From positions 1 through 22,672 of the IMG/VR virus record IMGVR_UViG_3300022074_000405: 22,672 bases of DNA; one strand, given 5' to 3'. This DNA is from a virus. The notes under the pieces were generated by a model, which had not been told where the DNA came from, ran no database searches, and saw only the letters and a list, made by a program, of their open reading frames with translations. Positions 2,439 through 22,041 of this stretch are shown here, piece by piece (within the stretch, counting starts at the first letter, position 1; every line of letters starts with the position of its first letter). The position numbers were made by a program, and so were the translations under genes.

Positions 2439-2680
2439 GTGTATTTGATAGAATAAGTAAAGTAATTAATACTCCCTATGCAAAGGAGAAATATATGAAA
2501 ATGAAACTTGAAGAGTTAATAAACAGTGAGCATGATGAAGTATTAAAAACTCCTCTTAAAGATTTTCTAAAAGAAGCAGATGATGTTGGGTATAATTATT
2601 TTTTTAAAGACATAATAAAAAAAGTAATCATTGCAAGGTTACAAAAAAAGGGGCTACTAGATGAGTATAACAATACTTGA
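2435..2680 (+). CDS. Small helical protein of unknown function
   Basis: 81 residues if translation starts at GTG 2435, which overlaps the helicase stop. An in-frame ATG at 2495 would give 61 residues and has much the better ribosome site (AAAGGAG at 2482-2488, six bases ahead), so the shorter form may be the main product; both share one stop. The protein is rich in lysine, glutamate and leucine, predicted mostly helical, with no membrane span, cysteines or motif I recognise. Its end overlaps the DNA polymerase start by 20 bases, so it is probably translated with the polymerase and helicase and could be a replisome accessory; that is inference from position. Confidence 0.68.
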   Translation: MSVFDRISKVINTPYAKEKYMKMKLEELINSEHDEVLKTPLKDFLKEADDVGYNYFFKDIIKKVIIARLQKKGLLDEYNNT

Positions 2681-4715
2681 TGTTGAAAATACAGTCACAA
2701 CTAAGAACAGTAAGAAACACCTTGACCCATTCGAGAGGACAAACTCTCTGGTTATGGTTGGTGTTTACCCATTGGATGCTAAAGATCCATCCACTTATAC
2801 TTTCGACCATTGTGACCTTAATGAAAGTGATGATGTTGTATCTAACCGAAATGAACTACAGGGGATTTTAAATGAAACTACTACTCTTGTCATGCACAAT
2901 GCTAACCATGATCTTTTATGGTTGTGGGAATCTGGATTCACATACACAGGCAGAGTGTTCGACAGTATGTTATGTGAATGCATCCTCAATCGAGGAGTCA
3001 AACAACCCCTAGATTTAAAATCGGTTGCTAAAAAATATGATTGTGCCGTTGAAAAGCAGGACACCCTGAAAGAATATTTTAAGAAGGGTTACAGCACACG
3101 GGACATACCTAGAAAAGAATTAGACTATTACCTACGATGTGACCTTGCATGTACTAAAGAGTTATATCAAAAGATGCAGCTACGATTGAAGTCTAATCAA
3201 GATGCAGGACTAAAAAATGTTATTGATATAACTAATGAAGTTGCAGTTGTACTTGCAAGGATGTATCAGTCTGGTTTTAAAATTGATATGGATAGACTCG
3301 ATGATGTAGAAAAAGAGTTTAGAAAAGAAAAGTTAGAACTAGAGACTAGCCTACAGGAGTTTACTAAAAAACTTATGGGTGATACTCCTATTAATCTTGG
3401 CAGTACAGAACAACTCTCTTGGGTTTTGTTTAGTAGAAAACCTATAGATAAAAATGCATGGCACTCTTGCATTGAACCTCATACACCTACAAATGTTTTC
3501 AAAGGACTAATTAGAAAGCACTTCAAGACTTTGTTTAAAACAAAAGCAAAGCAATGTAGTAGGTGCAAGGGTAAGGGCCAGTTCTATAAAACTAAAAAGG
3601 ACGGTAATCCATTTAAGAAAGCTACCAAGTGTAATGTCTGTGGTGGTTCAGGCTTTGTGTATGAAGAAAGCAATAAGGTAGCAGGGTTAAAGTTTAGTCC
3701 TCCTAGTGCAAAGTGGGCCAGTGCTAGTGGGTTTAGTACATCCAAAGGTAACTTAGAAATACTAGAAAGATTTGCTAATAGTAAAGGGATGACAGAAGCA
3801 TCTGAGTTTCTATCTAAACTTAGAAGACTATCAGCTATCACAAGCTACTTATCAAACTTTGTTGAAGGCATAAAAGACTTTGTAAAAGAGGACGGGTTCC
3901 TACATGTCAGGTTAAATCAGCATGTTACTGCTACTGGTAGATTTAGTGGAGCTAATCCGAATATGCAGAACATGCCTAGAGGTTCTACCTTTCCTGTTAA
4001 AAAAGTTTTTGTATCTCGATTCCAGGGGGGCAAAGTATTAGAAGCAGATTTTGCACAACTAGAATTTAGGGTGGCAGCTTATCTCAGCCAAGACCCTGTT
4101 GCTATTAAAGAAGTGACAGAAGGTTTTGATGTACACAGCTACACTGCAAAAGTTATATCAGATGCAGGACAGCCCACATCGAGACAAGTTGCAAAGGCAC
4201 ACACGTTTGCCCCGTTGTATGGTGCTACAGGTTATGGCAGGACTGAAGCTGAAGCTACTTACTACAAACACTTTATTGAAAAGTACAAAGGTATAGGTAA
4301 ATGGCACAAGAAACTAGCTAATCAAGCAGTCGGGCATGGGTTTATTAGAATACCTAGTGGCAGGGAATTTGCCTTTCCTGATACACAAAGGAGAAGGGAC
4401 GGTACAGTAACTAACTTTACACAGATTAAAAACTATCCAGTACAATCATTTGCTACGGCAGATATAGTACCTGTAGTATTGGTAGAACTGTATAATAAAC
4501 TTGACGGATATAGGAGTTGTGTAGTAAACTCTGTACACGATTCCATCGTTATAGATGTACATCCCGATGAAGAGCAACAAGTAATTGATATCATTGAGGA
4601 TGTACAAAAGAATCTAGTAGCTGTAATTAAAGCTAGATATGGCATAGAAGTAAACGTGCCATTGTTGTTAGAAGGAAAGATTGGAAGTGATTGGTTAAAT
4701 CAAACTGAACTATGA
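2661..4715 (+). CDS. polA: Family A DNA polymerase with 3'-5' exonuclease and inserted DnaJ-type zinc finger
   Basis: 684 residues; replicative polymerase of the T7 gp5/Pol I family. Residues 1-165 form a DEDDy proofreading exonuclease: D7/E9 (LDVEN), N80/D84 (HNANHD) and Y157/D161 (YLRCD). Palm and fingers occupy about 390-684: motif A LEADFAQLEFR (D463), motif B R508-xxx-K512-xxx-F516 ending in LYG, motif C VHDS (D627). F516 corresponds to E. coli F762/Taq F667, where T7 has Tyr. Between exonuclease and palm lies a cysteine finger: CSRCKGKG (299-306) and CNVCGGSG (324-331), two CxxCxGxG repeats as in the DnaJ central domain, which has four. HMO-2011 polymerase is known for this partial DnaJ insertion; this is my main reason for placing the phage. 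All catalytic residues are intact. The ATG overlaps the previous gene; the ribosome site is AAGGGG. Confidence 0.96.
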   Translation: MSITILDVENTVTTKNSKKHLDPFERTNSLVMVGVYPLDAKDPSTYTFDHCDLNESDDVVSNRNELQGILNETTTLVMHNANHDLLWLWESGFTYTGRVFDSMLCECILNRGVKQPLDLKSVAKKYDCAVEKQDTLKEYFKKGYSTRDIPRKELDYYLRCDLACTKELYQKMQLRLKSNQDAGLKNVIDITNEVAVVLARMYQSGFKIDMDRLDDVEKEFRKEKLELETSLQEFTKKLMGDTPINLGSTEQLSWVLFSRKPIDKNAWHSCIEPHTPTNVFKGLIRKHFKTLFKTKAKQCSRCKGKGQFYKTKKDGNPFKKATKCNVCGGSGFVYEESNKVAGLKFSPPSAKWASASGFSTSKGNLEILERFANSKGMTEASEFLSKLRRLSAITSYLSNFVEGIKDFVKEDGFLHVRLNQHVTATGRFSGANPNMQNMPRGSTFPVKKVFVSRFQGGKVLEADFAQLEFRVAAYLSQDPVAIKEVTEGFDVHSYTAKVISDAGQPTSRQVAKAHTFAPLYGATGYGRTEAEATYYKHFIEKYKGIGKWHKKLANQAVGHGFIRIPSGREFAFPDTQRRRDGTVTNFTQIKNYPVQSFATADIVPVVLVELYNKLDGYRSCVVNSVHDSIVIDVHPDEEQQVIDIIEDVQKNLVAVIKARYGIEVNVPLLLEGKIGSDWLNQTEL

Positions 4716-4724
4716 GAGGACTTT

Positions 4725-5618
4725 ATGAGTACAGATATTTCAACATTAAATACGTCAAACTTTAATCAACTTGCTCAAGCTATGGGCATGGAAGCTGACA
4801 CAAAAACTAAGAAACAAACTAGCACACTTGCACGATTGAAGATAGACCACTCAGGTGTAATGGGTGAGACTGAAATCAAAGGTAAGAAAAAGAAAGTAGA
4901 AGTTGTAGATGCAGGAAGTTTTTGTTTAACACTACCTGATGATACAAAACTTTATGATTCTAATCCTAAGATTCGATTGTTCCAACAGAAGTTTATGTAC
5001 AAGAGGTATCTAACTTCTGGTGGGCCAGAGGGTAAGGGTATGTTTGTCAAGACAGAAATGGCAAATGATTTGAAAGGGGATCTAAGAGATAACACAGGCG
5101 GTTTTAATTGTGGTAAGCCTAGTGGTTGGATTGAGGATTACAACTCTTTACCTCAAGACCAGAAGGACTTAATTAAGTCTATTAAAAGAGTTCGGGTTTT
5201 GTTTGGTCATGTTACATTGACTGCCCCTGTAAATGAAAAGGGAGAGTCTGCTACTTTAGATAAAGCAGTTGATCCTATTCCTTTTATATACGAGGTAGAC
5301 AACAAGGAAGCCTTTAAAATTATGGGTGGCCCGATTGCTGAGATGGTTAAACAAAAGTTTCTACTTCCACAAAAGAATTTAAAGCTAGGTACAGAGGAAA
5401 GAAGTATTGCTTCTGGTGCTAAGTATTATGTTCCAAGTGTGGAGTTAGACTCTGGTGTAGTTGAACTAAAAAATCCTCAAGATGAAGATACGTTTAAAGA
5501 TTTCAATGCTTGGATTGAGGGTTATAACAGTTACATTGCAAATGCTTATTCTGATTCAGCAAAGAAGGACGAGAATAATCTAGTCAATGAATTTGTTGAA
5601 GTAACAGAGGCAGCTTAA
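4725..5618 (+). CDS. Conserved replication-block protein, candidate ssDNA-binding protein
   Basis: 297 residues. I do not recognise the family from motifs. It sits between the polymerase and a recombination nuclease, where T7-like phages place single-strand binding protein (gp2.5) next to endonuclease I and exonuclease. Features that fit such a role: a basic, lysine-rich patch (KGKKKKVEV) followed by beta-rich segments with aromatic residues, and a disordered acidic tail (DENNLVNEFVEV) like the acidic C-terminus by which SSBs contact partners. It lacks a recognisable OB-fold signature and is longer than gp2.5 (232 residues), so the assignment is inference. Ribosome site GAGAGGA lies four bases before the ATG. 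The stop shares one base with the next ATG (TAATG), so the nuclease is probably translationally coupled to it. Confidence 0.5.
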   Translation: MSTDISTLNTSNFNQLAQAMGMEADTKTKKQTSTLARLKIDHSGVMGETEIKGKKKKVEVVDAGSFCLTLPDDTKLYDSNPKIRLFQQKFMYKRYLTSGGPEGKGMFVKTEMANDLKGDLRDNTGGFNCGKPSGWIEDYNSLPQDQKDLIKSIKRVRVLFGHVTLTAPVNEKGESATLDKAVDPIPFIYEVDNKEAFKIMGGPIAEMVKQKFLLPQKNLKLGTEERSIASGAKYYVPSVELDSGVVELKNPQDEDTFKDFNAWIEGYNSYIANAYSDSAKKDENNLVNEFVEVTEAA

Positions 5619-6469
5619 TGATTACTCACCCTGCAGAAATTAGAATCAGACAGTACCTATCGAATGTAAAAAGTTCGGATTCCATTATGTCTGAAGAAGT
5701 TATTGACAGGGTGACTGATGAAATCAGAGACTCACTTAAAAAGCAGTTTGTAGATAAAAGCAATAATGATTTTCGATTGCGTATGTCAAACTTAGGTAGA
5801 CCTTATTGTCAACTATGGTTTGATAAAAATAAAAAACATACTGCTTTGCCTCCTACATCAAACTTTGTTATTAACATGATGATAGGAGATGTACTTGAGT
5901 CTGTATTCAAAGGCATACTTACTGCAAGTGGTGTTGATTATCAGAATGGGGAAAAGGTAACTCTTAATTTATCTCGCCACAAAATTGAGGGTACACCTGA
6001 CCTAATTATGGATGGTAAGGTAGATGATGTAAAAACTGCTAGTCCTTGGTCTTACGAAAATAAGTTCAAGGACTACAACACCCTAGCAGCAGGAGATAGT
6101 TTTGGTTACATAGCACAACTAGCAGGGTATGCAAAAGCCTGTGGGGTAAAGCCTGGTGGTTGGTGGGTTATCAACAAAGCCAATGGGGATTTTAAATATG
6201 TACCTGCAACAGGCTTAGATGTAGATGCTAATATAAATAAAGCTAATAACGTAGCAGAGGAACTAGATAAAAATTCTTTTCGTAGAGTGTATAATGATGA
6301 GCCAGAAACTTATTACAAAAAACTTACAGGTAATCGTAAGCTGTGTCGGGAATGTGGTTGGTGTAGTTACAGGAATGAGTGTTGGCCTACTTTAAAAGAA
6401 AGACCGTCAGTAGTATCGAAAGCAGAGATACCTCCGATGGTATGTTATACGGAGTTACGAGGTGTTTAA
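5618..6469 (+). CDS. PD-(D/E)XK exonuclease of Cas4/RecB type with likely Fe-S cluster
   Basis: 283 residues. Nuclease core: an acidic helix at D91/E94 (GDVLE), EGTPD (D128), then DVK (D137/K139), and the RecB-family QxxxY motif Q167-LAG-Y171. This is the order seen in lambda exonuclease, RecB nuclease and Cas4. Cysteines fit the Fe-S cluster of Cas4/AddB: C64 near the N-terminus and a C-terminal group C243, C246, C249, C255 (CRECGWCSYRNEC). In those enzymes one N-terminal and three C-terminal cysteines bind 4Fe-4S and lock the nuclease fold. It would resect DNA ends for recombination or degrade host DNA, the role of T7 gp6. The start is ATG 5618 in TAATG overlap with the gene before; its end overlaps the endonuclease I gene by eight bases. 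Family assignment is firm for the nuclease fold, inferred for the cluster. Confidence 0.82.
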   Translation: MITHPAEIRIRQYLSNVKSSDSIMSEEVIDRVTDEIRDSLKKQFVDKSNNDFRLRMSNLGRPYCQLWFDKNKKHTALPPTSNFVINMMIGDVLESVFKGILTASGVDYQNGEKVTLNLSRHKIEGTPDLIMDGKVDDVKTASPWSYENKFKDYNTLAAGDSFGYIAQLAGYAKACGVKPGGWWVINKANGDFKYVPATGLDVDANINKANNVAEELDKNSFRRVYNDEPETYYKKLTGNRKLCRECGWCSYRNECWPTLKERPSVVSKAEIPPMVCYTELRGV

Positions 6470-7424: not shown

Positions 7425-7813
7425 TGAGTTTATATGGAGAGTATTTAGGAAATGTTCGTAAACAAATAGAAGAAGAAACTAAAGTTTGCGATGCTTGTGG
7501 AGAAGTGCATGGTGAAGAAGCACTACCTTTTAAAGATAAAGATATTTCAGAGTATAAAACTTTTGAACATTCAGCTAATAAAGATATGGTGAATCATCCT
7601 GAACATTACAACAAAGGTAAGTATGAAACCTATGATGTAATTGTAGATACATTAGGTAAGCATGAAGCTATGTCGTATTGTCAAGGTAATATACTTAAAT
7701 ATATTATGAGGATGTGGAATAAAGATAAGCCTTTGCAAGATGCAGAAAAAGCTGAATGGTATTTGAAAGCTATGATAAAGTTATTAAAAGAAACTAAGGG
7801 AGTCAACTGGTGA
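7424..7813 (+). CDS. DUF3310 (SaV-like) protein with an N-terminal CxxC
   Basis: 129 residues. The C-terminal ~75 residues carry the DUF3310 pattern: VNHPEHYNKGKYE (starting near residue 56), then a helix with CQGNILKYIMRMW and DAEKAEWYL. DUF3310 is widespread in phages near nucleotide-metabolism and replication genes; its biochemical role is not established. The N-terminal part adds a helix and CDACGEVHG (C22, C25), half of a zinc-ribbon-like knuckle with no second pair. The gene overlaps the ribonucleotide reductase gene (TGATG), which hints at a link to nucleotide supply. Confidence 0.82.
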   Translation: MSLYGEYLGNVRKQIEEETKVCDACGEVHGEEALPFKDKDISEYKTFEHSANKDMVNHPEHYNKGKYETYDVIVDTLGKHEAMSYCQGNILKYIMRMWNKDKPLQDAEKAEWYLKAMIKLLKETKGVNW

Positions 7814-9558
7814 TGATGTATGACAAAATAAACATAGATGTAAGTAGAGATACACTGCTTAGTGAACAGGCAACTCAACTGTTAAGAGATTACTACATGC
7901 TAAAGTCTGAGGTATCTCCACAAGAAGCATTTGCTAGAGCATCATTAGCATATTGTGACGGTGATTATGATTTTGCTCAGAGGATATATGATTATGCTAG
8001 TAAACAATGGTTTATGTTTTCTAGTCCTGTCCTCAGTAATGCACCTAAACCAAAAGAATCTTTTAAGGCATTACCTATTAGTTGTTTCTTAACTTATGTG
8101 GGTGATACATTAGAAGATTTAATTGCACACAATACAGAAGTTGCTTGGTTATCTGTAAAGGGTGGTGGGGTTGGCGGTCATTGGTCAGATGTAAGGGCTG
8201 TCAGTGATAAGGCTCCAGGGCCAATCCCATTCCTTAAAGTAGTAGATAGTCAAATGACTGCATATAAACAAGGTAAAACTAGAAAGGGAAGCTATGCTGC
8301 GTACATGGATATTGATCATCCTGACATTATTGAGTTTATCAATTTTAAGTTACCTACTGGCGGTGATGCTAATAGGAAATGCTTTAACCTATTCAATGCT
8401 GTTAATGTAACTGATAAGTTTATGAAACGGCTTGAGGCTGATGAGGTAATTGAACTGAAAGATCCTCATACAGGTCTATACAGAGATAGAATTAGAGCCA
8501 GAGAGTTATGGGAACGTATACTTGAGGCTAGATTTAGGACAGGCTCACCCTACATTAACTTTATTGATACAGCTAATGAAGCAATGCCTGAAGCTTTGAA
8601 GCAACAAGGCTTAAAGATTCATGGTAGTAACTTATGTAATGAGATTCACTTACCTACAAATAAAGATAGAACTGCTGTATGTTGTTTGTCTTCAGTCAAC
8701 TTAGAAAAGTTTGATGATTGGAGAACTACTCCGATGGTAAGAGATTTGATTCGTTTTCTGGATAATGTACTACAAGCATTTATAGATAATGCTCCAAGAG
8801 ATATTGTAAAAGCCAAGATAAGTGCATTAAGAGAGAGGTCACTAGGGTTGGGAGCTATGGGATTTCATGGTTACTTACAGAAATACAACACACCATTTGA
8901 AAGTCCTGTAGCTAAGTCTTTAAACAATAGAATATTTAAGCATATAAAAGATGAAGCCTTATTGGAAACAAAGTTACTTGCAACAAAACGTGGTTCACCA
9001 GGTGATCTTTTTGGTACTGGTGTTCGTAATGCACATCTTCTTGCTATTGCTCCTAATGCCAATAGCAGTATTATTTGTGGCTGTACTGCTAGTATCGAAC
9101 CTGTTAAGTCGAATGCGTATGTGCATAGGACGAGGGCAGGATCTCACTTAATTAAAAATAAGTATTTAGCTACAGTGCTAGATAAGTATAAGATGAATAA
9201 TGAAATTACATGGAAAAGTATTATTAACCATGAGGGTTCAGTTCAGCATCTAGATAATCTTACAGACTACGAAAAAGATACTTATAAAACTGCGTTTGAG
9301 CTTAACCAAGAGTGGGTAATCGAACACGCATCTGATAGACAAAAGTATATATGCCAAGGACAATCTGTTAATCTATTCTTTCCTGCAGGAAGTGATAAGA
9401 GTTATGTCAACTCTGTTCACATTAGAGCATGGAAGGGTAAATTAAAAGGGTTGTATTATCTCCGTACCTCTTCAGGCAATCAAGCTGAGAAAGTTGGTAC
9501 ACAAATTCAACGAGAAGCACTGAAAGATTCAGAGGAGTGTATAAGCTGCCATGGATAG
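7813..9558 (+). CDS. nrdA: Class I ribonucleotide reductase, large (alpha) subunit, without ATP-cone
   Basis: 581 residues from ATG 7813. GTG 7810 and ATG 7816 are alternatives; AAGGGAG at 7796-7802 serves any of them. Reduces ribonucleoside diphosphates to deoxy forms. Seen: active-site cysteine C91 (PISCF), the N273-C275-E277 trio (SNLCNEI) with the thiyl-radical cysteine, partner cysteine C290/C291 (AVCCLSS), the tyrosine pair Y548-Y549 (GLYYLRT) that receives the radical from NrdB, and the C-terminal shuttle pair C576/C579 (ECISCHG). The tyrosine pair and the nearby nrdB show class I, not class II. It is shorter than the ~760-residue host enzyme because it starts at the catalytic barrel: the N-terminal ATP-cone that senses dATP is missing, so feedback inhibition by dATP is probably lost. 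Three small genes and a terminator separate it from nrdB. Confidence 0.94.
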   Translation: MMYDKINIDVSRDTLLSEQATQLLRDYYMLKSEVSPQEAFARASLAYCDGDYDFAQRIYDYASKQWFMFSSPVLSNAPKPKESFKALPISCFLTYVGDTLEDLIAHNTEVAWLSVKGGGVGGHWSDVRAVSDKAPGPIPFLKVVDSQMTAYKQGKTRKGSYAAYMDIDHPDIIEFINFKLPTGGDANRKCFNLFNAVNVTDKFMKRLEADEVIELKDPHTGLYRDRIRARELWERILEARFRTGSPYINFIDTANEAMPEALKQQGLKIHGSNLCNEIHLPTNKDRTAVCCLSSVNLEKFDDWRTTPMVRDLIRFLDNVLQAFIDNAPRDIVKAKISALRERSLGLGAMGFHGYLQKYNTPFESPVAKSLNNRIFKHIKDEALLETKLLATKRGSPGDLFGTGVRNAHLLAIAPNANSSIICGCTASIEPVKSNAYVHRTRAGSHLIKNKYLATVLDKYKMNNEITWKSIINHEGSVQHLDNLTDYEKDTYKTAFELNQEWVIEHASDRQKYICQGQSVNLFFPAGSDKSYVNSVHIRAWKGKLKGLYYLRTSSGNQAEKVGTQIQREALKDSEECISCHG

Positions 9559-10643: not shown

Positions 10644-11621
10644 ATGAGTCTTACGTCTAGTTCCACAGTATATAAACCATTTAAATATCCTTGGGCAGTT
10701 GAGTTTGCTGTTAAGTCTGAGAAGGCTCACTGGGGTGAGTGGGAAGCAAAGCTACAAGATGATGTAGCTCAATGGCAGTCAGGCAAGTTAAATGAAGCAG
10801 AGAAAAATCATATTACTCAAATACTTAGGTTGTTCACTCAAAGTGATGTAGCTGTAGGTACAAATTATCTAGAGCATTACATACAAAAATTTAAGAACAA
10901 TGAAATCAGAGCTATGCTGACTAGCTTTACAAACAGAGAGTTTGTACATCAACGTAGCTATGCACTACTCAATGATACTTTAGGATTACCTGAAGAAGAA
11001 TACTCTGCTTTCTTAGAGTACGAGCAGATGAAAGAAAAGATAGAGTTTATGACAGACCTAGATACAAACTCAGTTACAGGTTTAGGCAAAGGTATTGCTA
11101 GGTCTGTAATGAATGAGGGTATGTCCTTGTTCTCAGCCTTTGTTATGCTATTAAACTACCAGAGATACGGTAAGATGAAAGGTATGTGTGAGATTGTAGA
11201 GTGGTCTGTAAGAGATGAGACAATGCACTGTGAAGGCATGGTCAAGTTATTCAGGGAATACTGTAAGGAACATCCTAGAATAGTTACTGATGAGTTCAAG
11301 AAAGATATATATCAGATGTTCAGGGATGGGGTAGCCTTAGAAGATGCTGTTGTAGATACAGCATTTGAGATGGGAGCAGTAGAAGGGTTATCAGCAGATG
11401 ACGTAAAGCAGTACATTCGATACATAGCTGACAGGAGATTGATACAGCTAGGATTGAAAGGTAACTTTAAAGTCAAGGAGAACCCCCTAGAATGGCTTGA
11501 TTGGATTGTTGGGGGTGATACCCTTAAGAACTTCTTTGAGGGTGTTGTGACGGACTACAATGCCTCTGGAATGGTAGGTGATTGGGGGTGGTCTACAACT
11601 AAAGAAAGGATAGCTGCATGA
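10644..11621 (+). CDS. nrdB: Class I ribonucleotide reductase, small (beta) subunit
   Basis: 325 residues from ATG 10644; GAGGAG (10633-10638) is five bases ahead, so the in-frame GTG at 10638 is part of the ribosome site. Ferritin-like di-metal protein that makes the tyrosyl radical passed to NrdA. Ligands visible: D68 (TQSDVAV), E99 and H102 (REFVHQ), E158 (NEGMS), E192 and H195 (RDETMH). The radical tyrosine Y106 is present four residues after H102 (EFVHQRSY, as in E. coli E115/H118/Y122). So it is the ordinary tyrosyl-radical type, not a Phe-substituted subclass. Length is near phage NrdB norms. It is isolated from nrdA by ~1.1 kb with three small genes and a terminator. Its last four bases (ATGA) are the start of the cytochrome gene. 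Confidence 0.95.
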   Translation: MSLTSSSTVYKPFKYPWAVEFAVKSEKAHWGEWEAKLQDDVAQWQSGKLNEAEKNHITQILRLFTQSDVAVGTNYLEHYIQKFKNNEIRAMLTSFTNREFVHQRSYALLNDTLGLPEEEYSAFLEYEQMKEKIEFMTDLDTNSVTGLGKGIARSVMNEGMSLFSAFVMLLNYQRYGKMKGMCEIVEWSVRDETMHCEGMVKLFREYCKEHPRIVTDEFKKDIYQMFRDGVALEDAVVDTAFEMGAVEGLSADDVKQYIRYIADRRLIQLGLKGNFKVKENPLEWLDWIVGGDTLKNFFEGVVTDYNASGMVGDWGWSTTKERIAA

Positions 11622-11917
11622 TAATAACCTTACTACTAGCCTTACTTTTTAACCCAGTATTTGCAGGTGATGCAGTACTGGGTGAGGCAAAGTTTATGCA
11701 GAACTGTAAGCAATGTCATGGCCCTGCAGGTATGGGCATGGCTAGTTACCCAAAGGTATCTGGTAATGATATTGATTACACGATAGATAGATTAAAAACT
11801 TATAGAGATGGTATTGAGGTTGGCCCGAACTCTGCATTAATGATAATGATGGCTAGACCTTTATCAGATATAGATATACATAACTTAGCTGAGTATTTAA
11901 AAGAAGCAAAGAGGTAA
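11618..11917 (+). CDS. Exported mono-heme cytochrome c, class I (c553/c4-like)
   Basis: 99 residues. Signal peptide: hydrophobic residues 1-13 with cleavage likely after VFA16; it has no basic N-region, which is unusual. The mature ~83 residues contain the heme-binding CKQCH (C30, C33, H34) followed by GPAGMGM, a middle segment YTIDRLKTYRDG, and MIMMARPLSDIDIHNLAEYL, where one of M75/M77/M78 would be the sixth ligand. This is the layout of small class I cytochromes c (c553, c5, c4 halves). It would be matured in the periplasm by the host Ccm system and carry electrons between the bc1 complex, oxidase or other partners. AAAGGA is seven bases before the ATG; the ATGA overlap with nrdB argues that it is a true operon member, not a stray. 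A cytochrome is an unusual phage gene. Function in infection is inference. Confidence 0.9.
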   Translation: MIITLLLALLFNPVFAGDAVLGEAKFMQNCKQCHGPAGMGMASYPKVSGNDIDYTIDRLKTYRDGIEVGPNSALMIMMARPLSDIDIHNLAEYLKEAKR

Positions 11918-11923
11918 TAATAC

Positions 11924-12022
11924 TTGATTAAATTTTCACTGTTTATAGTACTATTTTTTTTCTTAGCTATTAACCCTATGTGGTTTTGGTGTGCTTATAC
12001 AGCTTGGATATTTATTAATTAG
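11924..12022 (+). CDS. Possible 32-residue membrane peptide
   Basis: An open frame from TTG 11924 with GAGG (11911-11914) nine bases ahead encodes 32 residues, almost all hydrophobic: IKFSLFIVLFFFLAIN, then MWFWCAYTAWIFIN. It would be one membrane span with many aromatics. It starts six bases after the cytochrome stop and runs eight bases past the convergent stop of the minus-strand gene. It could be a small partner of the cytochrome, but a short frame in AT-rich DNA reads hydrophobic by chance, so this is weak. Confidence 0.25.
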   Translation: MIKFSLFIVLFFFLAINPMWFWCAYTAWIFIN

Positions 12023-15000
12023 GTGTTTCAAATATATATCCAGGCTTTGTAAGTCCTCTAAATTCTATTAATGCTTTTTCGTATTCTTTGGTATCGTCTA
12101 ATGACTCACCATACTTATCTTCATACGCATTTGCAATTATTGTTCTGTCTCTTTTACCTAATTGTCTAAAAGCTATATAGTCCATAGTTCGTATTATATT
12201 TTTAGAAACTCGTTCCCCTGTTCTTAAATCTACTCCAGTTCTTTTAAAATTTTCTTTGGTCATTCTAAATAAATCAGATATGGCTCTTTTTAGGTTGTTT
12301 ATTTGCTGTTCGGTACTTGAATTTTTATATCGGTCACTTTCAATAATGGGTAAGAGTTGTCTATCAATATATGCCATTGAGTTTGAAATAATTAAATTAT
12401 CGTAAGTTTTAATTCCAGTAGGAGTATACTCTTGCCAAGGTTGCATACCAAGTCTTATTATTTCTTTTTCAATTTTACTTTTTGGAGCAGATAATTTTAC
12501 ACCTAAAAAGTTTGTTAAAAATCCACCTGCTGTTGACGGTGGCCCATACTTAAAGTATTGGACAGCTTCTTCTAACTGTTCTTTACCATACATGTTGCCT
12601 AGTAAATGAGGGGGCAATTTATTTTTAAATTGATTATTTAAATGTTTTGCTAATAAATTCGTATCAGAGTCTAGCAATACATCAAAAGGAATATCTTTAG
12701 GGTCACGAGATATAAATCCTTCAGCACTCATGCCTTCAAAAAATTCTTTTACTGGTTTAATAGGTTGTGGAAATCTACCTAAAAAATCTGCCGCACCTCT
12801 AGCAAGTATTTTTGTTACTTCTTCTGTTGTCATTCCCTCTTCAAGAAGTCTTGCAAAATTACCAAGAATAGGATAACCACCATATCTTTGTGGTTCTATC
12901 GCAGTAAGGAGTTTTATTGTCTGATCTAGTGTCGATCTACTTGGTACTTTTTCTTTTTCATCTCTCATAAAAGAAATATAAAATAACTCTCCTAAAGCAC
13001 TGTACTGTGCCATTGGAAATACATTAGTAATTTTAAAAACATCACCTTCTTCATTAGTCATTTCATCTAAAGCTGCCTCTCTATCAAATTTTCTTTGTAA
13101 TCCAAAAGCTGCAATTATAGAAAATCCAACCATACCTTGAGAAAATGCTCTTAAACCATTGTTATACAATGCTTGTCTTTTAGCAAGATCCATATTTTTT
13201 TTAGTTAAAGCAGTTGTCATGTCTTGTATACCTGATACACCACCAACAGGTGAATATCTATACAAACTATTTAATCCACTTGCTATAAATCTAGGAAATG
13301 GAGTTCCTATAATACTTCCTGTAGGTAAATTTTCTATACCTTTTACAAGTACATGAGCTATAGTATTACCTGCTGTTTCAAAACTAAAATTTTTTCCATT
13401 TTTAAATCCTAAATTTTTAAATTGGTATGTAAAGGTTGCTCTCATAGCATCATCAGTAGCTTTTTTTAATATATCTTTAGGTATTGGAACTCCCTTGTCT
13501 AAAAAATCTGTATGTAAATTTTTACCAACTGAGTTTAATTGTCTTTCTACAGAGGCAGCAAAAAAACTTTTTCTACTAAATGAATCTACAGCAATGTTTA
13601 GGGTACTAAGAAATCTACCAAATCTACTTATCTGACTTTTATCTACAGGGCCAGTAATAAGAGTGTTAGTTAGAGTATCTCTAATAGATGGATTAAATTT
13701 TAAAATTTCGTCTACTTCTAAGCTAGTCATTCCGTAGTCAACCATTTTTACCCACTCTTTAAAAACATCTCCTACGTTTGTAACTTCAGGAATACTCATA
13801 ACTTTAGGGTCTGCTCCTAGAGTTGTTCCTATGCCTCTCATAAATTTATTAAACATTAACTCAAAACCTCTTGCTGCTGTACCAAAGGTTGCTTGAGATA
13901 AAGTACCTTGTATGTTAGCCGTAGTAGTCGATAAAGCTGAAGTAACCCATACTTTAGATTCTCTTTCTAAGTTTAAAAATCCCTGTCCTATTCTAGATTG
14001 AAATCCAGGATGGTATTCTCTTTTTGTTAAAGTTTCTATAAACTTCATAGACTCTGGATCTTTACCTACCATATTGTTATATATCTTAGATACATAAGAA
14101 TAAGGTTGCATTTTTTTTGCACTATCAGATAAGGAAGCACCCATTAGTTTTTCCATATCTTCAGGTTTTATATCGTATTGTTTTAATGCATCTATTAAAT
14201 CTGTCTGAACTCTTTTTGCATATTCATCTGCACTAATTCCTGCTTGTGTTGCAGCTTGCTCAATATCAAGTGCATCAATTTTATTTTCCATTAAATTTTT
14301 TATTACTCTATTTACAGCTTGTCCTATTCCTTCTTGCACAGAATCCGTCTGTATAAAAAAATCTTTTTCTCCTCTACCTCTTATAAATTGTTCTGCATCT
14401 CCCCTGTTTGCAAAAGTGCCAAATGATTTTTTGCCTCCTTTTTTCAGAACTCTGAATCTCATTTGCATTTGTGGGCCAAACTCTTTAATATTATTGAGCA
14501 TAATATGACCACCAATTTTTACTGCTATTGGGTACAATTTAGTTCTAACTTGTGTTTCAAATATCTCTTTTTGTTGAGGAGAATATTTTTCAAAGATTTG
14601 TTTAGCTTCGTCTGTATATTCGTAAAATTCAGATAGTTCTTTATCTGATTTACTTAGTAGTTCTGATACAGCCCTTTCTTCTTTAGATAATGTTTTTGAA
14701 ATGTTAGGACTTTTACCTGCTTTTAATTTAGACTCAAAGTCTTTTATAATTTTTTCACTTTGATCTAATTCTTTAAATGTAAATTTTTTATCTAACTTAC
14801 TTAAAAATCCAATTTGTTTTTTATCAGTTAGCTTATCAACTCCAGGTATTGATGTTATAGAATCAGCAACATCAAATCTTGTAGAGAGTCCACCAAATAA
14901 TGTACCTACTGCACCTTCTAATGCCACATTAGTGTAGTCAAAAGTTTCTTTTCTGTATTGTAGTATAGCTAAATTTTCTTTCATTCCTCCTGAGTAAGCA

Positions 15001-16199
15001 CCAATAGTTCCTTCTATTGCCGCACCTGCATACATTGCTCTTCTTTTTACTCGATTTTTATATAAATCTAAATCTTTTTTTAGACTATCAATATTCTTTT
15101 TACTTTCTTTTTTAAGAGCACGACTTTTTGGAGTAGATGTAAAACCATCTTTAAGTTTTTTTGAAACAGCTTCTTCTTTAAGTATAGCTTTAGCTCTGTT
15201 TAAAGCTCCTTTAGCAGCAACCATAGATGCTACTTTACCTGCACCTAAACCAAAGTAAGTAGTTGCATCTGTAACTAAAGCCTGTCCAAAATCAGCAAAT
15301 GCTTCAAACTTATTATACCCACCATCAAATATAGGAATAGAATCCCATAAAGTAAAAGCATATCCTGCACGGGTTCTATCTTCTTCACTTGCACTATTAG
15401 TCCATAATAACTCTTGAGCAAGATCAATATTGTTATATTCTACATGTCGCATGTGATTTGCAAACCTACGAATATAATCTTTTCTGGTTTCATTTGCTTC
15501 TAAGTTTCCTTGTTTTCCAAACCTTGCAATCATAAAATCTTCTACATGAGCAAAGTATTCATCATTTTCATAAAGCTCATCATACTTTAATGTGAGTTCT
15601 TCATCTGGAACAATATTAGCAGACTCAGGTAAATTTGATATACCTTCTATTCGTTCTTTTGGAGTTTGTAAAGAGGGAGTAGTATTATTAGTAATAATTG
15701 ATATTACAGAATCTCTGTAGTCTCTTGTCTGTACAGAGCCACCTTGTTTGTCTACTAAAGTTTCACCACCATTGTATGCTTCTAAAGTTTTATTTAAATC
15801 ATTATCATATTTTTTTAGTAAGTCATCTAAAAATCTAGCAGCACCTACAACATTTTGTCTAGGGTCAGTTGGGTCTTTAACACCATACTCATTACGAATG
15901 ATAGGCATTAATTGCATCATACCTATTTCACCATCTGCACCTTCTGCTAAAGGATCAAAGTTAGATTCTTGTTGAGCTATTGCTTTTAATATTTGAGGAT
16001 TGATATCATGTTTTTTACCCACCTCTTCAAATAAAGAGTCATATTCGTTTGCTTTTAAAACAGAATCTTTACGATTAATATCAGGTTGACTCGATGACTC
16101 CTCATCTTTTTTGTACATCTCAAGAACTTGTCTTTGCTCTTCTTCTGTTAAAGGGTCAGGAGAAGTTATTTCAAAACCATCTATTGTATATGTATTCAT
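12015..16199 (-). CDS. Giant internal virion/ejection protein with lytic transglycosylase domain
   Basis: 1394 residues, near the size of T7 gp16 (1318). An N-terminal SLT/lysozyme-like domain (about 50-160) shows catalytic E78 in QQESNFDP, the GEIGMMQLMP motif (90-99) and AYNGG (141-145): a peptidoglycan-cutting transglycosylase. Such proteins are ejected with the DNA, open the wall locally and help form the channel across the envelope. The remaining ~1200 residues are helical with lysine-rich coiled-coil regions (about 340-380, 460-560) and Gly/Ala-rich stretches (about 300-330, 385-405) of a type that can insert in membranes; I cannot name domains there. It is the last gene of the minus-strand module and meets the plus-strand transcription unit tail to tail. 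ATG 16199 is two bases after the stop of the gene before it; ribosome site weak, coupling likely. Confidence 0.87.
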   Translation of the reverse strand: MNTYTIDGFEITSPDPLTEEEQRQVLEMYKKDEESSSQPDINRKDSVLKANEYDSLFEEVGKKHDINPQILKAIAQQESNFDPLAEGADGEIGMMQLMPIIRNEYGVKDPTDPRQNVVGAARFLDDLLKKYDNDLNKTLEAYNGGETLVDKQGGSVQTRDYRDSVISIITNNTTPSLQTPKERIEGISNLPESANIVPDEELTLKYDELYENDEYFAHVEDFMIARFGKQGNLEANETRKDYIRRFANHMRHVEYNNIDLAQELLWTNSASEEDRTRAGYAFTLWDSIPIFDGGYNKFEAFADFGQALVTDATTYFGLGAGKVASMVAAKGALNRAKAILKEEAVSKKLKDGFTSTPKSRALKKESKKNIDSLKKDLDLYKNRVKRRAMYAGAAIEGTIGAYSGGMKENLAILQYRKETFDYTNVALEGAVGTLFGGLSTRFDVADSITSIPGVDKLTDKKQIGFLSKLDKKFTFKELDQSEKIIKDFESKLKAGKSPNISKTLSKEERAVSELLSKSDKELSEFYEYTDEAKQIFEKYSPQQKEIFETQVRTKLYPIAVKIGGHIMLNNIKEFGPQMQMRFRVLKKGGKKSFGTFANRGDAEQFIRGRGEKDFFIQTDSVQEGIGQAVNRVIKNLMENKIDALDIEQAATQAGISADEYAKRVQTDLIDALKQYDIKPEDMEKLMGASLSDSAKKMQPYSYVSKIYNNMVGKDPESMKFIETLTKREYHPGFQSRIGQGFLNLERESKVWVTSALSTTTANIQGTLSQATFGTAARGFELMFNKFMRGIGTTLGADPKVMSIPEVTNVGDVFKEWVKMVDYGMTSLEVDEILKFNPSIRDTLTNTLITGPVDKSQISRFGRFLSTLNIAVDSFSRKSFFAASVERQLNSVGKNLHTDFLDKGVPIPKDILKKATDDAMRATFTYQFKNLGFKNGKNFSFETAGNTIAHVLVKGIENLPTGSIIGTPFPRFIASGLNSLYRYSPVGGVSGIQDMTTALTKKNMDLAKRQALYNNGLRAFSQGMVGFSIIAAFGLQRKFDREAALDEMTNEEGDVFKITNVFPMAQYSALGELFYISFMRDEKEKVPSRSTLDQTIKLLTAIEPQRYGGYPILGNFARLLEEGMTTEEVTKILARGAADFLGRFPQPIKPVKEFFEGMSAEGFISRDPKDIPFDVLLDSDTNLLAKHLNNQFKNKLPPHLLGNMYGKEQLEEAVQYFKYGPPSTAGGFLTNFLGVKLSAPKSKIEKEIIRLGMQPWQEYTPTGIKTYDNLIISNSMAYIDRQLLPIIESDRYKNSSTEQQINNLKRAISDLFRMTKENFKRTGVDLRTGERVSKNIIRTMDYIAFRQLGKRDRTIIANAYEDKYGESLDDTKEYEKALIEFRGLTKPGYIFETPN

Positions 16200-21333: not shown

Positions 21334-21538
21334 CTTCTTCTCCTTTACTTGCTTTATAAAACTTCTTTCTTCTTTTGCAACCCTTATCTGTTTTTGGTTC
21401 AAACCAATTAAACCCTCTTTTAGTATTAGCACACCAGTAAGTACATAAGTCTCTTTCTATCCACTGTAACTTACAATAGTATTGATCTACATGTGGTACT
21501 AAAGTAGCCATCCATATTGTAAAAGTTACACTAATCAC
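21326..21538 (-). CDS. Small Cys-rich protein with hydrophobic N-terminus
   Basis: 70 residues from GTG 21538, well supported by GGAGG (21546-21550) seven bases ahead and a GTGA overlap with the gene before. Hydrophobic start (ISVTFTIWMATLV), then four cysteines (YYC, DLC, YWC, DKGC), many aromatics and a basic tail. It could be membrane-linked or exported with disulfides, or bind a metal through the CTYWC pair; no family recognised. It sits between a membrane protein and the holin, so a lysis accessory role is possible. Confidence 0.62.
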   Translation of the reverse strand: MISVTFTIWMATLVPHVDQYYCKLQWIERDLCTYWCANTKRGFNWFEPKTDKGCKRRKKFYKASKGEEVA

Positions 21539-22041
21539 TTACTTGCCTCCACTATTGCTGTCCATAAAAAGTGAGATAGATAAATTAAAAGTAAAACTAA
21601 ACTTCCAACAGCAATTCCCATCTTGGTGTTATATAAAAAATTCTTCCTTCTTCGCATCTGATTATAAACTTCTCGTTCTCTTCTTTTCTTAATCTCTCTC
21701 CGCATTTTAATAAACTTTCGATAGCCGTTAAGTCCTCCCCAATCTGCTGTCCAGTTTGCAGTGAAGAACTCTCGAATATATTTTTCTTGCTCACGAATCT
21801 TTTCCTCTGCAATAATGCTATCAAATACTTCTTGAGTTGCTGACCTTTTATAACTAAGTGTTTTAAATATCCCTGGCTTACTTTTCTCTTGAGAGATTAC
21901 TTCTTTTACATCTTCAATGTGTCCTGCCCATTTAGACAGAGTGCGATAAATCTCCTCTACATCTTTCCCTACTGCTACTGCTTTTTTAAGAGTCGTGTAA
22001 CATACAGATGCTGCTGAAAGTGCAGTGATAGGATCTATCAA
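21535..22041 (-). CDS. C-terminally anchored membrane protein of the lysis/tail region
   Basis: 168 residues from TTG 22041, with GGAG seven bases ahead. Opens with IDPITALSAASVCYTTLKKA, a start common among small marine-phage proteins encoded near tail-fibre and lysis genes; then a charged helical region, very basic at 107-133 (MRREIKKRREREVYNQMRRR), and one span at 141-164 (IAVGSLVLLLIYLSHFLW). Function is not known to me. The orientation (basic tail just before a C-terminal span) differs from Rz inner spanins, whose anchor is N-terminal. Confidence 0.68.
   Translation of the reverse strand: MIDPITALSAASVCYTTLKKAVAVGKDVEEIYRTLSKWAGHIEDVKEVISQEKSKPGIFKTLSYKRSATQEVFDSIIAEEKIREQEKYIREFFTANWTADWGGLNGYRKFIKMRREIKKRREREVYNQMRRRKNFLYNTKMGIAVGSLVLLLIYLSHFLWTAIVEASK

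Follow-up and report, generated by a model that had tools for sequence, protein, structure and literature searches.

Why would a bacteriophage carry a gene for a cytochrome c directly behind a ribonucleotide reductase gene? The question is raised by an IMG/VR virus record, a metagenome fragment of 22,672 bases that was analysed over its full length (referred to below as the window). By polymerase identity, polymerase insert and early gene order, the window is classified as a fragment of an HMO-2011-type phage. Its DNA polymerase A gene (2661-4715, plus strand) is nearest to that of Puniceispirillum phage HMO-2011, with 60.4% identity over the full length of the protein and the Roseobacter phages CRP-345 and CRP-1 alongside, and the DnaJ-type insert of the polymerase matches the insert annotated in HMO-2011. 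The early genes run from primase, helicase, polymerase, endonuclease and a kinase-like gene to ribonucleotide reductase and then to convergent genes, an order resembling that of HMO-2011. The reductase is encoded by nrdA (large subunit, 7810-9558, plus strand; PF02867 and PF00317) and by nrdB (class I small subunit, 10644-11621, plus strand; PF00268, E 1.7e-72), for which the ATG at 10644 was used as start; the open reading frame list begins at a GTG two codons upstream. The cytochrome gene follows at 11618-11917 (plus strand), and beyond it a convergent gene encodes a large virion-type protein with a transglycosylase domain (12015-16199, minus strand; PF01464, E 1.6e-22), phage genes thereby flanking the cytochrome on both sides. 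Directly after the cytochrome gene lies a tiny, uncertain hydrophobic ORF of 32 residues with a TTG start (11924-12022, plus strand); tiny ORFs resembling it (MIKF...) are also found 3' of the cytochrome in two viral contigs (L063 and L064). A further gene of the window (21535-22041, minus strand) encodes a 168-aa protein without Pfam match that recurs in cytochrome-carrying contigs of other phage types (L005, L009, L012, L016 and L018).

The first-pass annotation had described the product of 11618-11917 as a complete class I cytochrome c, and this is borne out. The 99-aa protein, read from an ATG preceded at a distance of 7 bases by the Shine-Dalgarno-like AAAGGA (11605-11610), matches PF00034 with E 2e-9, its 39.1 bits lying clearly above the cut-off of 21.3. 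The haem attachment motif CKQCH (11705-11719) contributes C30, C33 and H34, which together with Met75 (codon 11840-11842) are invariant in an alignment of 48 phage and bacterial homologues. The gene is intact and carries a single haem motif, and the arrangement of CxxCH and a distal methionine on a small helical domain, ending in the C-terminal stretch NSALMIMMARPLSDIDIHNLAEYLKEAKR, is that of class I. Residues 1-16 (MIITLLLALLFNPVFA, 11618-11665) were read by eye as a leader peptide with a cleavage site between VFA and GD, and, likewise by eye, every complete relative has a hydrophobic leader of the Sec type; the protein is thus probably periplasmic. We conclude that the window encodes a genuine class I cytochrome c, which would be loaded with haem.

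Structure prediction, which had been proposed as a check of the haem pocket and the methionine ligand, agrees with this assignment. An AlphaFold2 model built from the 48 sequences reached a pLDDT of 85.7 with an all-helical mature part, and its best structural matches are monohaem cytochromes c. The closest solved structures, all three of them cellular proteins, are 8yts (Thioalkalivibrio paradoxus cytochrome c546/556, Z 12.0), 1cno (cytochrome c552, Z 11.4) and 2zzs (c554), with Z from 12.0 to 10.9 and 34-41% identity on structural alignment; for 8yts our literature search found no describing paper. A bc1-cbb3 supercomplex also contributes a structural neighbour, its cytochrome c4 (8smr). Of three neighbouring methionines only Met75 is invariant (Met77 and Met78 vary), and it aligns with the methionine of 8yts, which has GQHTALMAPHA instead of GPNSxLMIMMA; Met75 is therefore the likely axial haem ligand.

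Searches against viral and bacterial proteins, also suggested at first pass, recovered bacterial orthologues (see below) and, in two scans, the cytochrome gene in 24 further IMG/VR contigs of several phage types and many samples. A first group is HMO-2011-like with nrdB upstream (L002-L004, L006, L008, L010, L063-L068). A second is represented by L009, which has a class II ribonucleotide reductase gene just upstream and Lentibacter phage ICBM2 as nearest isolate, and its close kin L005, L007 and L011. The third comprises T4-like phages with IscU/IscA-type genes (L013, L014, L017) as well as contigs with an IscA-type gene (L012, L016, L018, L019) and the short L015; in this group Melnitz phages of OM43 have the sequences nearest to L013 UvsW and L018 RNase H, and for UvsW Mosig of SAR11 comes next. 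In two of these contigs a polytopic membrane protein, about 320 aa long and without Pfam match, is encoded near the cytochrome and the IscA-type gene (L018 9273-10232 and L016 7143-8105, both minus strand). No isolate phage with the gene was found, as nothing similar to the cytochrome was detected among 50,697 INPHARED phage records at the sensitivity used, and PHROGs gave no match to it.

The viral record is a metagenome fragment, and host DNA in a viral contig or a chimeric assembly could mimic such a gene. We consider this practically negligible in probability and rejected it, because the same gene stands in phage context in the 24 further contigs, from several phage types and many samples, and forms a distinct phage clade. 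It is therefore not confined to one assembly, nor are CxxCH and the methionine lost in its relatives, all of which keep them; either finding had been named in the first-pass annotation as one that would tell against the reading. Moreover, purifying selection on the gene is strong (dN/dS about 0.1). For the mature part, most pairwise dN/dS ratios lie between 0.06 and 0.15, while pairs with L018 give 0.17-0.29; between the window and L002 or L004 dN is 0 at dS 0.13-0.18, while the close pair L005/L009 gives a ratio near 1 from very few changes. Purifying selection and the 24 further contigs exclude a chance ORF.

The stop of nrdB and the start of the cytochrome gene share the four bases ATGA (11618-11621), an overlap that could be taken to mean that the cytochrome serves as redox partner of ribonucleotide reductase. 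The overlap is real in the window, but only part of the relatives keep it; L003, L004 and L008 have an extra ORF between the two genes. Of 80 IMG/VR loci that have a close nrdB, only some carry the cytochrome. In relatives at 86-95% nrdB identity the position after nrdB is taken by an MT-A70 methyltransferase, a 2OG-Fe(II) oxygenase, an unknown protein of 112 aa or some other short gene, and differing cargo of the first three kinds was seen at L003 4471-5001, L107 3992-4612 and L004 5922-6260. In L010 a radical-SAM gene, QueE-like by eye (PF04055 below cut-off), lies just 5' of nrdB (5460-6080). The proposed comparison of synteny in HMO-2011-type genomes accordingly gave a divided answer: nrdB precedes the cytochrome in the HMO-2011-like contigs, but near relatives hold other genes there, and the equivalent place in HMO-2011 itself is occupied by hypothetical genes and a MazG-like gene, with no cytochrome. 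Since the content of the slot varies, the link between cytochrome and nrdB is one of place and probably of expression, as had been surmised at first pass, where expression timing was offered as a possible reason for the arrangement. The class II reductase close by in L009 would also suit a reductase partner; however, export from the cytoplasm is predicted from the leader peptide, in the T4-like carriers the neighbouring genes are of the IscA type, and near relatives fill the slot with unrelated genes. On the strength of the leader peptide and the variable slot we rejected a partnership with the reductase as very improbable.

Where does the cytochrome come from, and with what might it exchange electrons? 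A scan of bacterial genomes, with search patterns that favour phage-like sequences, yielded 43 loci, 41 of them good relatives, mostly from marine Alpha- and Gammaproteobacteria and Methylophilaceae including SAR116, OM43 and Roseobacteraceae. In 39 of the 41 a glucose/sorbosone dehydrogenase gene (GSDH; PF07995, E about 1e-45) lies immediately downstream of the cytochrome, and the other two (L059 and L060) stop at the cytochrome at contig ends. As NCBIfam TIGR03606, the PQQ-dependent glucose/sorbosone family, matches these dehydrogenases below its curated cut-off, their PQQ dependence is likely but not proven. A second draw, consisting of the order of genome G002 and 385 genomes of one class, showed GSDH linkage in 15 of 15 strong orthologues with flank but in none of 13 weaker cytochrome loci, two of which are the same gene. 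In a third draw of 369 genomes of another class, all three matches above 100 bits were GSDH-linked, one of them (L181) with the dehydrogenase upstream of the cytochrome instead of downstream, and 27 loci at or below 86 bits were unlinked. Across the draws, whose counts should not simply be summed because they share genomes G001, G002, G003 and G005, none of about 40 less similar cytochrome loci is GSDH-linked. The orthologue is uncommon (9 of the 385 genomes of the first class draw). When seven bacterial genomes were scored against a phage profile, the linked gene obtained 138-150 bits and every other cytochrome at most 48, a gap of about 90 bits.

Concordantly, the phages retain 28 of the 29 conserved positions of the GSDH-linked family, and sequence coding for PNSxLMIMMA is shared by the phage genes with many of the linked genes and absent from all unlinked loci. 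Judged by these sequence features, the phage cytochrome almost certainly belongs to this small, mostly marine family, whose bacterial members, as gene order indicates, probably accept electrons from the dehydrogenase. The phage protein and the GSDH-linked cytochromes c of marine Proteobacteria are equal in length and share the haem and methionine motifs and a putative leader peptide. The phage gene differs in being placed in phage cargo slots without a dehydrogenase neighbour: no GSDH gene lies beside the cytochrome in any phage locus, and a two-pattern scan of the viral collection found no viral GSDH. We therefore class the phage cytochromes as an uncoupled branch derived from the family and not as typical members.

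The tree with bacterial cytochromes that had been called for at first pass supports this placement. Built on 87 columns, it places 22 phage rows in a single clade (100/100) nested in the GSDH-linked family, with L018 and L019 apart, few columns and long outgroup branches weakening the inner resolution. In the cytochrome of L018 (7944-8315) a leader like that of L016 is joined to a mature part with as much as 78% identity to bacterial members, a mismatch that points to a second capture or to recombination involving a bacterial allele. Taken together, a host-derived, intact gene that is flanked by phage genes, under purifying selection and nested in a bacterial family fits an auxiliary metabolic gene as far as its sequence can tell, and its metabolic effect would be exerted during infection.

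At the near-fixed positions K25, Q32, D86 and R99 the main phage clade departs from the bacterial members, which could reflect a changed partner. These fixed residues, like the uncoupling from the dehydrogenase gene, would also be in keeping with a redox decoy or regulator that competes with the host cytochrome and draws electrons away, for instance to a peroxidase, or obstructs sugar oxidation. Retention of the haem and methionine ligands and of the conserved family positions under strong purifying selection fits a working carrier better, and we hold a decoy to be improbable.

As a working carrier, the phage cytochrome would be made together with the early nucleotide-metabolism genes, exported, and then supplied with haem by the host cytochrome c maturation system. 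Electrons from a host PQQ-type glucose/sorbosone (aldose) dehydrogenase, perhaps also from bc1, would pass via the phage cytochrome to cytochrome c oxidase, and proton-motive force and ATP would thereby be sustained while phage DNA is copied. Periplasmic sugar oxidation is the likely electron source because the bacterial orthologues are encoded beside a PQQ-type sugar dehydrogenase. To get from family to role, we rely on this bacterial gene order, the leader, the haem motif and the family signature kept in the phages; that the protein is loaded with haem, which partner it has, which way electrons flow and what the phage gains are all predictions. We give a role with the sugar dehydrogenase during infection a slightly better than even chance. 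The best explanation as a whole, a phage member of the GSDH-linked family that feeds the host oxidase from sugar oxidation, we regard as somewhat probable.

The main rival is a general respiratory shuttle from bc1 to the terminal oxidase in which the sugar dehydrogenase has no special part. It is common for small soluble class I cytochromes to have several partners, and the phage loci without GSDH, some phage-specific residues and the presence of 8smr among the structural neighbours would all accord with such a shuttle; against it, all strong bacterial orthologues with flank are GSDH-linked, other cytochromes of the same genomes are far less similar, and the signature of the linked family is kept in the phages. 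We consider a general shuttle possible but rather unlikely. Thus, of the initial proposal that the phage, one related to those of heterotrophs, carries an electron-transfer auxiliary gene maintaining bc1/oxidase turnover, the first part is likely to stand, whereas its bc1/oxidase generality is weakened by the GSDH linkage of the orthologues. Our preferred reading, with the sugar dehydrogenase as electron source, can be widened: several distinct marine phage types may have taken up nothing but the mobile cytochrome from a host PQQ sugar-dehydrogenase pathway, and may exchange it, as a phage-specific branch powering infection via the respiratory chain, a scenario for which we see an even balance.

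Phage electron-transport genes are best known from cyanophages (plastocyanin, ferredoxin, PTOX), where, as here, the phage contributes no more than a small carrier or branch of the host electron chain. The difference is that the present gene encodes a c-type cytochrome of sugar oxidation or respiration, in phages related to those of heterotrophs. Phage-borne soxC and soxD are electron-transfer genes with cytochrome c motifs (Kieft 2021, PMC8190135); they concern sulfur oxidation, and the haem motif is absent from some viral SoxD but kept in all cytochromes described here. Metagenomes have been reported to contain viral genes for cbb3 oxidase (PMC3474794). Our literature search, which was short on subscription journals, found no paper on a cytochrome c in pelagiphages or HMO-2011-type phages, and precedent is possible.

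If the proposal is true, the cytochrome would be a respiratory counterpart of the photosynthesis genes of cyanophages. Periplasmic sugar oxidation via a PQQ-type dehydrogenase would provide a named, testable electron source that requires neither sugar import nor cytosolic metabolism, and the predicted partnership lends itself to a two-protein assay in vitro. With a conserved cytochrome c in relatives of the phages of SAR116, SAR11 and OM43, respiration would be shown to be manipulated by viruses of heterotrophic ocean bacteria as well.
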